32,780 nucleotides of DNA from positions 1 to 32,780 of the IMG/VR virus record IMGVR_UViG_3300046010_001847, one strand, 5' to 3'. The translations under genes were made by a program, and so were the position numbers. Of this stretch, positions 5,816-10,105 are shown piece by piece. The notes beneath the pieces were generated by a model. It was not told where the DNA came from and did not search any database. It saw only the letters and a list, made by a program, of their open reading frames with translations. The DNA is from a virus. The first letter of the stretch is position 1; the number at the start of each line of letters is the position of its first letter.

Positions 5816-5833
5816 AATTTATCGGAGGAAAAA

Positions 5834-6580
5834 ATGAACGTGCTTGATCTTTTTTCCGGCATTGGTGGATTCTCCCTTGGGCTCGAAAGGGCGGGGATGA
5901 AGACGGTTGCATTTTGTGAGATTGACAAGAAGGCGCAACTTGTGCTGAAGAAGCACTGGCCTGAAGTTCCGATCTTTGAAGATGTGTCAAGGCTCAAGAA
6001 GGAGGATATCAATGAGCAAGTTGACGTTATTTGTGGAGGATTCCCCTGCCAAGACATCAGTCTTGCAGGAAGAGGGGAGGGACTTGATGGAAAGCGAAGC
6101 GGACTCTGGTTTGAGTTCCACAGGCTCATCAAGGAAATCAGGCCGCGCTACGCGATCATCGAAAACGTCTCAGCCCTTCGCTCTCGCGGATTGGAAGAAG
6201 TGCTCAGGGGGATCTCTGAGATCGGGTACGATGCGGAATGGCATTGTATACCCGCTTCCGCCGTTGGTGCCCCTCACCAAAGGGACAGGATATGGATCGT
6301 TGCCTACATTGGCGGCTCGGGAGGGGAGGGATTGGTCGCAAGCACAGATATTGGCAAGGCTAGACAAGGGTGGGTGCGTTGCGAGAAGAATTTGTTCTAC
6401 ATCTCAAGCTCTCCGTTCCAGTCAGGAGATCGTTGGCCTACACCCCTCATTCGGAGAATGGATGATGGGATTCCCAATAGGGTGGACAGACTTAAACAAC
6501 TCGGAAACGCCGTAGTACCGCAAATACCAGAACTAATCGGCACCGCAATTATGAATGCTGAAAGGTTGAAAAAAGCATGA
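5834..6580 (+). CDS. dcm: DNA cytosine-5 methyltransferase
   Basis: The 248-residue enzyme transfers a methyl group from S-adenosylmethionine to carbon 5 of cytosine in a specific site. All key motifs are present: motif I DLFSGIGGFSLGLERAG (5-21), motif IV GGFPCQDISLAG with catalytic C72, motif VI IENV (109-112), motif VIII QRDRIWIVAY (149-158) and motif X KQLGNAVVPQIPE (221-233). The target-recognition segment between motifs VIII and IX is very short (about 50 residues), so the enzyme is near the family minimum. ATG 5834 has GGAGG five bases upstream; no family homology precedes it. It may protect phage DNA from host restriction. The region 6012-6515 also encodes a second protein in another frame. 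Its stop overlaps the next start (ATGA). The sequence recognised cannot be read from the protein. Confidence 0.93.
   Translation: MNVLDLFSGIGGFSLGLERAGMKTVAFCEIDKKAQLVLKKHWPEVPIFEDVSRLKKEDINEQVDVICGGFPCQDISLAGRGEGLDGKRSGLWFEFHRLIKEIRPRYAIIENVSALRSRGLEEVLRGISEIGYDAEWHCIPASAVGAPHQRDRIWIVAYIGGSGGEGLVASTDIGKARQGWVRCEKNLFYISSSPFQSGDRWPTPLIRRMDDGIPNRVDRLKQLGNAVVPQIPELIGTAIMNAERLKKA
6012..6515 (+). CDS. Nested gene inside dcm, conserved-looking phage protein
   Basis: This 167-residue frame lies wholly within dcm (covering its codons 60-227) in a different frame. ATG 6012 is preceded by AAGGAGG with a six-base spacer, one of the best ribosome binding sites in the window. The product begins MSKLTLFVEDSPAKTSVLQ and contains TSQPFALADWKKCSGG, GTMRNGIVYPLPPLVPLT, SLPTLAAREGRDW and near its end HPSFGEWMMGFPIGWTDL. 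From memory these are hallmarks of a phage protein family often annotated as hypothetical or methyltransferase-associated (LF-x-x-DSPAKTS ... WPRSGxMRNG ... LPT ... EWLMGFPxGWTDL). The pieces fall on dcm motif IV (PCQDIS) and motif IX-X in the other frame. Function is unknown; a role tied to methylation is only context. It is possible that some database relatives are themselves dcm overlaps. Confidence 0.65.
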   Translation: MSKLTLFVEDSPAKTSVLQEEGRDLMESEADSGLSSTGSSRKSGRATRSSKTSQPFALADWKKCSGGSLRSGTMRNGIVYPLPPLVPLTKGTGYGSLPTLAAREGRDWSQAQILARLDKGGCVARRICSTSQALRSSQEIVGLHPSFGEWMMGFPIGWTDLNNSETP

Positions 6581-7149
6581 CTCTCGAACCAAGACTTGAT
6601 CCCGACGAGATAGAATATCTCAAGCAGTTCGTTTCGGAAACCCTAAATGGAAACCCCGAAACGCAGATGACCGAGTGGGGAAGCGGCGGGAGCACACTGA
6701 TGTTCCTGCCATACTTTTCTTCCGGCACATTGATATCAATCGAGCACAACCCCGAGTGGTATGACAAGGTGATGAAGGCGGTGGGCGAAGCGAACTTGCC
6801 GGACAAGGTCGCCGAGAACTTCGTGTATTGTTACCAACCACCATCCGTCGACATCCGCTTCTACGGATACGGGGTTCCATTCGAGGAGAACCCATGCTTT
6901 GCGGCACGGTACATAGACCCCGGCCTGAAGTACAAGAACATCTTTGACTCCGACATATACTTCGTTGATGGAATATGCCGTGGGGCAGTGCTGGCCACGA
7001 TCATTGCAAAAGCAAAGAAGCGCGGGGCAACGGTTTTTATCCACGACTACTACGGCCCCGAGCAAAGAGGGCAATGGTATCAATGGGCGTCCAGCCTATA
7101 CAGCAGCGTTCATCAGGTGGGGTCTACGCTGGCGAGGCTTTACATATGA
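6577..7149 (+). CDS. Class I SAM-dependent methyltransferase-like protein
   Basis: The 190-residue protein shows a Rossmann-type methyltransferase pattern: motif I TEWGSGGSTLMFLP (32-45), then SIEHNPEWYDKV (54-65) with an acidic residue at the end of strand 2 to bind the cofactor ribose, DSDIYFVDG (124-132) and TVFIHDYYGP (152-161). No DNA-adenine motif (DPPY/NPPY) is present, so the acceptor is unknown and could be protein, sugar or a small molecule. The start ATG overlaps the dcm stop (ATGA), and its own stop overlaps the next start in the same way, so the three are translated in series. It may be a nucleotide- or glycan-modifying enzyme, but the sequence does not say. Confidence 0.65.
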   Translation: MTLEPRLDPDEIEYLKQFVSETLNGNPETQMTEWGSGGSTLMFLPYFSSGTLISIEHNPEWYDKVMKAVGEANLPDKVAENFVYCYQPPSVDIRFYGYGVPFEENPCFAARYIDPGLKYKNIFDSDIYFVDGICRGAVLATIIAKAKKRGATVFIHDYYGPEQRGQWYQWASSLYSSVHQVGSTLARLYI

Positions 7150-8837: not shown

Positions 8838-9290
8838 ATGACCGAGTGGGCCAAGAAGAACACCCTGCAATGTGAAGTTGTGAAGATAGCCATGTCGCAG
8901 GACAAGAACGGGCATGTCCTGAAGCTGGCCATCCACCCAAACGACCTTCCAAAGGATCTAGTGTTGGATCCTCTTGGTTCACGGTATGTTATGGTGCTTG
9001 CGCGTCTAAATGATCAAGACGAAATTATGGCCCCGAAGGAGAAGACAGATGGGGAAAGGGCGGTGGCTTCTGCCAGTCTTATGTGCCGTAATGATCGGTT
9101 TGTGGCTTGGCTTGCTGATCGGGGTTACGCTCGTGATGACACTGAAGATTCCGCCCGTGAAGGGGTTCGAGAATTTTGCTCCGTCAAATCCATCTCCGAG
9201 CTGGCCACCAACGAAGACGCGCGTCGTAAGTTTGTAGGATTGAGAGAAGAGTTTGACCGGGCAGTTAAAAAAGGAGAGGCACCAAAATGA
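8838..9290 (+). CDS. Hypothetical phage protein
   Basis: The 150-residue protein has a beta-rich N-terminal half (LQCEVVKIAMSQDKNGHVLK, then LAIHPNDLPKDLVLDPLGSR and VMVLARLND) and a helical, charged C-terminal half (MCRNDRFVAWLADRGYAR, FVGLREEFDRAVKKG). The IHPxDLPxxLxxDPLGSRY signature recurs in alphaproteobacterial phages and prophages as far as I recall, always without a known role. It follows the HNH-like gene after one base and overlaps the integrase start by four bases (ATGA), so it is co-translated with the integrase. Confidence 0.65.
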   Translation: MTEWAKKNTLQCEVVKIAMSQDKNGHVLKLAIHPNDLPKDLVLDPLGSRYVMVLARLNDQDEIMAPKEKTDGERAVASASLMCRNDRFVAWLADRGYARDDTEDSAREGVREFCSVKSISELATNEDARRKFVGLREEFDRAVKKGEAPK

Positions 9291-10105
9291 CGTTCGAGGA
9301 ATTGTTCAGGAAATATGAAAGGTCGCCGGGGTTTGAAAAGCTCTCGGTCAAATCAAAACAGGCATACATCTATTGCGGCAAACGAATAGCTGCACAGCTT
9401 GGAGATATGGATGTGACCTCTGTTCGGAGGTCAACCTTCATCAAGATGCAGGGCGACATGAAGGACACACCCGCTTTGGCGAACCTGTTCACGCGGATCG
9501 CGTCCATTGCTTTCTCATATGGCGTGGATCTGGACATCATCAGCGCCAATCCGGTTGCGGGGCTCAAGTCCCTAAAGACAGGGGGCCACGAAAAATGGAA
9601 CCCCGAAGAGGTCAGGCAGGTGATTGCATTGAATGATAGGAAGATCTCAACCGCAGTTGCGCTTGCGTGGTACACCGGCCAGCGCGAAGGCGACATCTTG
9701 TCGATGCGTTGGTCCGACTACAAGGACGGCTACATCTCTCTGGCACAGCAGAAGACCGGGCAAGAGATGAAGCTGAAGGTGCATCCCGATCTTGAGGCGT
9801 ACCTTGATTCTGTGCGCGGCACGGAGCCTGAGGGGTACTTCATTGTGTCGGGCAAGAATCAGGTGACCGGAGGGTCTTTCCGCGTCACGTTCAGGCGGAA
9901 GATGGATTCTATCGGGATCAAGAAGACATTCCACGGCATCCGCAAGGGCGTGGCGTGTTCTCTTGCCGAGAATGGCAGGTCCGTAAATGAAATAGCCGCC
10001 ATCCTCGGTCACAAGACCATTAGAATGGCGGCGTATTATGCGGATCAGGCCAGTGGAAAAAGGCTGGCTGAGAATGCCGTGAGCAGCATTGTTAGCTGCG
10101 TTTAG
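9287..10105 (+). CDS. int: Tyrosine recombinase (phage integrase)
   Basis: The 272-residue integrase would cut and rejoin phage and host attachment sites. An N-terminal SAM-like DNA-binding domain (about 1-90) precedes the catalytic domain with a full residue set: R133 in TGQREGDIL, K156 in QQKTGQE, H216 and R219 in FHGIRKGVA, H242 in LGHKTI, and the nucleophile Y251 in MAAYYADQ. It is short for the family, lacking a long arm-binding domain. The start is ATG 9287 overlapping the previous stop, with AAAGGAGAG upstream. It is the last gene of the rightward operon and meets the virion operon tail to tail with a three-base overlap of stops, leaving no room for an attachment site or terminator next to it. 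It is the main evidence for a temperate life style. Confidence 0.93.
   Translation: MTFEELFRKYERSPGFEKLSVKSKQAYIYCGKRIAAQLGDMDVTSVRRSTFIKMQGDMKDTPALANLFTRIASIAFSYGVDLDIISANPVAGLKSLKTGGHEKWNPEEVRQVIALNDRKISTAVALAWYTGQREGDILSMRWSDYKDGYISLAQQKTGQEMKLKVHPDLEAYLDSVRGTEPEGYFIVSGKNQVTGGSFRVTFRRKMDSIGIKKTFHGIRKGVACSLAENGRSVNEIAAILGHKTIRMAAYYADQASGKRLAENAVSSIVSCV

Follow-up and report, generated by a model that had tools for sequence, protein, structure and literature searches.

A gene overprinted within a viral C5-cytosine methyltransferase gene as the likely source of a second enzyme subunit

The window, by which we mean the whole 32,780-base stretch of a virus record analysed here, carries a C5-cytosine methyltransferase gene (alpha, 248 aa; 5834-6580, plus strand) which starts with an ATG at 5834, stops at 6578-6580, and has a ribosome-binding site, GGAGG (5824-5828, plus strand), 5 bases upstream of its start codon. 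Lying fully within it, in its +1 frame and on the same strand, is a second open reading frame (beta, 167 aa; 6012-6515) with a ribosome-binding site of its own, AAGGAGG (5999-6005, plus strand), and a six-base spacer to the ATG at 6012; this AAGGAGG site is also present in the relative L009. A sequence-only reading had singled out this 167-codon frame with AAGGAGG six bases 5′ of its ATG, and its particulars hold: the nested peptide DSPAKTS is the shifted reading of main-frame FPCQDIS, nested EWMMGFPIGWTDL is the shifted reading of main-frame RMDDGIPNRVDRL, and the main frame retains PCQDIS, ENV, QRDR and GN. Elsewhere in the window, a 190-aa ORF at 6577-7149 overlaps the alpha stop with its start as ATGA, and an ORF at 9287-10105 was judged by eye to be phage-type integrase-like.

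Alpha has motifs I, IV (PCQ), VI (ENV), VIII (QRDR) and X (GN; 6503-6508, plus strand, invariant in alignment A3), which satisfies membership in PF00145, and its best PDB match is M.HhaI. The Pfam DNA_methylase profile matches it at E 3.5e-50, covering profile positions 1-161 of 324 only. AF2 modeled residues 1-160 mostly at pLDDT 85-98 and residues 231-248 at about 94, linked by a disordered bridge at about residues 169-200 (pLDDT 36-42 for 171-200). A recognition domain and motif IX are absent from the alpha chain, the Pfam match ending at 161/324 and the segment in question being predicted as disordered. The part of alpha lying over the recognition region (6329-6484, plus strand) is open and predicted mostly disordered, an assignment based on low pLDDT and on the nested-frame pattern of evolution described below.

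As a null for stop codons, synonymous codons were shuffled within each gene, with protein and codon usage held fixed, and +1-frame stops were counted. The overlap in the window gene contains none, compared with a mean of 4.25 in the shuffles, of which only 0.2% were stop-free (P 0.002). Among homologues, a set seeded mostly by the main-frame protein with ~15 loci seeded by the nested protein, 27 of 74 have a fully open nested frame (0.7 expected by synonymous shuffle). By region, 68 genes together show 5 +1 stops over motifs IV-VIII where 198 are expected, and 9 between the recognition region and motif IX (TRD-IX) where 135 are expected. There is no deficit outside the overlap (298 versus 217 expected before it, 94 versus 61 after GN), and the +2 frame inside it has a stop count near expectation. 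Frequent nested-frame stops in relatives, one outcome that would have refuted the nested gene according to the sequence-only reading, are thus not seen; TRD-IX is interrupted by a stop in about 6 of the 68 genes. A larger set of 127 genes agrees, being partly seeded by the nested protein and hence biased. In that set the main frame has no stops over the TRD (277 expected), an openness which is largely ascertained, and 38 of the 127 genes have an SD of at least 5 nt before an in-frame nested start, where synonymous shuffling predicts 7.6.

The null itself is calibrated, with 2541 stops observed and 2572 expected in 211 neighbouring ORFs, and with at least one stop in every one of the 351 informative 90-codon windows of these ORFs. 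The stop-avoidance signal is strong in genes of 46-50% GC. Ten control C5-methyltransferases (E. coli Dcm, phi3T, KP27 and restriction-type enzymes) gave no signal, their +1 stops being about as expected, which rules out a generic property of all C5-methyltransferases.

Codon-position divergence was measured in 25 non-overlapping gene pairs. At main-frame positions 1/2/3 it is.210/.135/.546 upstream of the overlap,.16/.10/.31 over motifs IV-VIII,.317/.185/.196 between motif VIII and GN, and.29/.19/.56 after GN. In the motif VIII-GN interval, variation peaks at the main-frame position that is third in the nested frame; position 1 diverges more than position 3 in 21 of the 25 pairs, and the window differs from its nearest relative, L017, by 18, 1 and 2 changes at main-frame positions 1, 2 and 3. 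Divergence at fourfold sites is.55 before the overlap,.33 (motifs IV-VIII) and.36 within it, and.535 past GN, with the lowest value,.21, in the final portion of the TRD. Selection acts on the nested frame at the protein level, and the alpha segment matching TRD-IX is not conserved in frame 0, the nested frame being the one conserved there. The proposal of an overprinted pair with both frames selected is therefore borne out, the nested frame by its stops, codon positions and fourfold sites, and the main frame by its upstream pattern and conserved motifs.

What the nested product might be is best approached from its C-terminal end. Its last conserved element (6438-6494, plus strand; LHPSFGEWMMGFPIGWTDL) has the form LNPxWVEWLMGFPxGWTDL in most relatives. 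In one viral relative, L150, this element stands in the main frame, is followed by motif X, and aligns to M.HhaI LHPRECARVMGYPDSY; the alignment of the L150 chain with M.HhaI reads LHPRECARVMGYPDSYKVHPSTSQAYKQFGNSVV. Taken by itself, the motif IX-X stretch reaches just 6 bits against M.HhaI, with order and position in agreement, and the Pfam DNA_methylase match extends in L150 to profile position 322/324. On the strength of this alignment and of other in-frame copies, the nested C-terminus is methyltransferase motif IX.

Immediately upstream, the putative recognition-region segment of beta (LPTLAAREGRDWSQAQILARLDKGGCVARRICS...; 6300-6437, plus strand) was delimited by the A1 alignment, the codon-position pattern and similarity to Pseudomonas phage LPPA33 (57.7% identity over nested residues 97-167). 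At this place relatives carry variable WPTP cassettes in the A1 alignment. Similar WPTP cassettes occur there, after nested residue ~97, in differing combinations across otherwise diverged loci, and this arrangement suggests, as far as an alignment can, that recognition modules recombine among loci. The N-terminal part of beta (6012-6299, plus strand), overprinted on alpha motifs IV-VIII, has no counterpart among known methyltransferases, and its upstream portion is broken or missing in some relatives.

Searches with the whole nested product gave no Pfam or NCBIfam family match; the sole hit of the PDB profile search, a plant DRM methyltransferase, was weak and motif IX-like (E 1.6). AF2 modeled beta alone poorly (mean pLDDT 58.5), reaching just 75-82 near motif IX. 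Profile comparison with phage proteins did return PHROG 1008 (E 1.7e-20) and PHROG 26627, which hold the nested proteins of class A, the kind seen in the window. PHROG 1008 and 16143 carry the label 'DNA methyltransferase', as clusters without stated overlap, frame or role. The earlier statement that nested-type phage proteins are annotated on their own was right insofar as such families exist (PHROG 1008, 26627 and 16143) and wrong insofar as it implied stand-alone genes: tblastn of phages and plasmids and scans of viral and genome contigs yielded no truly stand-alone homologue, and all closely read loci overlap a methyltransferase gene. The nested gene is nonetheless real because its frame is under selection.

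Natural variants illustrate how the nested gene may be built. Nearest to a stand-alone form is L125, whose main frame ends just past motif VIII, leaving the remainder of a 308-codon nested ORF free to run through several WPTP cassettes to motif IX, so that the overlap is only partial. L150, L217, L238 and L241 have motif IX in the main frame with WPTP cassettes still in the +1 frame, and are apparent frame-transition forms. In L010, L012, L013, L096, L097 and L112, upstream stops break the nested frame, beyond which lies an ORF containing TRD and motif IX. Later beta starts, with their own start codons, are found in L012, L013, L150, L217 and L238; in L013, L150, L217 and L238 a candidate start lies at or beside the upstream stop. 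These variants agree with a gene that has its own start and in which TRD and motif IX form the essential part.

The +1-frame motif IX element also occurs in bacterial loci of Alphaproteobacteria, Planctomycetota, Actinomycetota, Bacteroidota and Bacillota and in an archaeal MAG, and in the records examined such loci are annotated with one CDS only. Some individual loci deserve mention. L251 (Paenibacillus macquariensis; 1691-2623) has motif IX in the main frame but no motif X, and the gene looks disrupted inside the cassette region. L257 (a Paenibacillus polymyxa plasmid; 1444-2934) has two apparent motif IX copies in the nested frame, LNPTWVECLMGFP and LNPAWVECLMGFP, possibly a duplication of the nested-frame end. 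In Mycobacterium phage Dove (L363), a C5-methyltransferase is annotated as two consecutive non-overlapping genes (592-1338 and 1360-1710).

We consider it likely that two overlapping frames at this locus specify the two chains of a heterodimeric C5-cytosine methyltransferase, with translation, assembly and activity being inferred. Alpha, read in frame 0, would be the catalytic large domain, comprising motifs I-VIII, a disordered bridge and motif X. Beta, nested in the +1 frame and started from its own ribosome-binding site and ATG, would add the target-recognition region and motif IX, that is, most of the small domain. The two chains would assemble as one enzyme, a probable use of which is the marking of phage DNA. 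The motif IX identity of the nested element and the segment missing from alpha are observations; the placement of the recognition domain on beta is inferred from the substitution pattern and the disorder in alpha, and it is likewise an inference that beta is translated at all, that it pairs with alpha and carries specificity determinants, and that methylation depends on it. That the second product acts with the methyltransferase, as the sequence-only reading had suggested, is the best reading because both frames are selected and the nested product holds motif IX, and the earlier idea on the nested gene is largely supported. Counting against the two-subunit model are the weak fold prediction for beta, its unmatched N-terminus, the few TRD-IX stops noted above, the prediction of the recognition domain on the large subunit in M.EcoHK31I (a known two-chain enzyme), and a set of relatives which we refer to as class B.

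Class B comprises relatives of a C. difficile enzyme in which TRD, motif IX and motif X are all in frame 0, yet a nested ORF is kept. Its members (L267-L346, L362, L364 and L365) are single-chain C5-methyltransferases of Bacillota phages whose nested +1 ORF is of another kind (PHROG 16143). Over motifs IV-VIII they have 3 +1 stops where 144 are expected, in a set that includes E. coli Dcm, the source of one of the three, and fourfold divergence is.58 before this region,.28 over it,.19 just after and.56 elsewhere. A model in which beta supplies motif IX does not cover class B, and the nested ORF retained there is one reason for entertaining the idea that the nested frame yields an independent protein, acting for example in methyltransferase regulation or counter-defence, whose likeness to motif IX is secondary; the lack of any match of the N-terminal part in known methyltransferases is another. 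We regard this as unlikely. In class B the nested C-terminus, SLSDILEEQVDEKYFLSEERQKKLI, is also a piece of methyltransferase and matches frame 0 of phi3T (63% over 24 aa, E 3e-7), and the end of the class B nested ORF, SLSDILEEEVDEKYFLSEE, corresponds to the segment after motif VIII in the phi3T main frame. Moreover, the class A element is motif IX, which alpha does not have, and some lineages lose the upstream N-terminal part and retain TRD-IX. With motif IX nested in class A and the post-motif VIII segment in class B, pieces of the small domain thus reached the nested frame by more than one route.

Programmed frameshifting, in place of internal initiation, would join motifs I-VIII to TRD-IX in a fusion protein. 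TRD and motif IX do directly follow motif VIII in the +1 frame, and the L125 main frame stops at that very point. A frameshift after motif VIII, however, needs no open frame over motifs IV-VIII, where stop avoidance is strongest; the fusion would also be without motif X, which is back in frame 0, and SD-start pairs are enriched just upstream. Because stops are avoided upstream over motifs IV-VIII, we hold such a fusion to be very improbable. Hardly any credence remains for an open nested frame as a mere by-product of conserved methyltransferase residues and codon usage: long shifted ORFs are frequent in high-GC genes, and the three striking nested peptides do overlie conserved main-frame motifs, so that on this view they would look conserved merely because PCQDIS, QRDR and the surroundings of motif X are, but with the main protein fixed, synonymous shuffling predicts ~333 stops where 14 are observed, the signal persists at moderate GC and is missing from other C5-methyltransferases and from neighbouring genes, and in TRD-IX it is the nested and not the main frame that is conserved. 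Chance or a codon-usage artefact is ruled out by the regional stop and substitution tests, the calibrated null and the controls.

Returning to the two-subunit enzyme, its implications would reach beyond the window. We lean slightly towards the broader view that overprinted partner subunits are a widespread and largely unrecognised design of phage C5-methyltransferases, one large group nesting exchangeable recognition cassettes and motif IX, and another (phages of Clostridioides, Streptococcus and gut Bacillota) nesting the post-motif VIII segment. If so, many single-dcm annotations represent two-gene enzymes, and cassette swaps in the second frame could alter target specificity. Codon optimisation of the main frame would destroy beta, and many annotated phage methyltransferases may thus be inactive or mis-specified if cloned with the main frame alone preserved. 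To our knowledge, DNA phages seldom have long overlapping genes on one strand in which both frames are clearly selected; the overlap in the window is statistically strong, has a recognisable nested function, and is met again both in phages and in the genomes of bacteria from many phyla. L125, L150 and L217 provide natural frame-switch intermediates for studying the origin of overlapping genes.

The closest precedent is M.EcoHK31I (YGGCCR), reported by Lee, Kam and Shaw in 1995, and M.EaeI is a further close known system. In M.EcoHK31I, the large-subunit gene also encodes the small subunit, read in a different frame. The window shares several hallmarks of the M.EcoHK31I type: alpha is a large chain with motifs I-VIII and X and without IX, motif IX lies on a predicted second polypeptide (as judged from the L150/M.HhaI alignment and second-frame selection), and the gene for this polypeptide sits wholly within the alpha gene, out of frame with it. 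No E. coli homologue close to the window gene at the DNA level was found, and no paper in the literature collection searched deals with the nested arrangement in phages. M.HhaI resembles alpha in fold and motifs and beta in motif IX, whereas M.HhaI and phi3T-type single-chain enzymes have all motifs in one frame; the nested ORF is absent from phi3T, KP27, Dcm and the restriction-type enzymes tested. M.AquI (CYCGRG) is split into a subunit with motifs I-VIII and one with part of the variable region and the later motifs. Its small subunit has both IX and X, with the split inside the variable region, whereas here motif X is on alpha and beta is entirely nested in another frame. M.EcoHK31I is described as two polypeptides, the large one with motifs I-VIII and X and a predicted recognition domain, the small one as the sole carrier of motif IX (PMC3404938). 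In the window, by contrast, we place the recognition domain on nested beta, with variable cassettes in relatives. The overprinted gene in the window is real and can be interpreted functionally; enzymes of this kind are known, if little noticed, and here prove to be widespread and variable.
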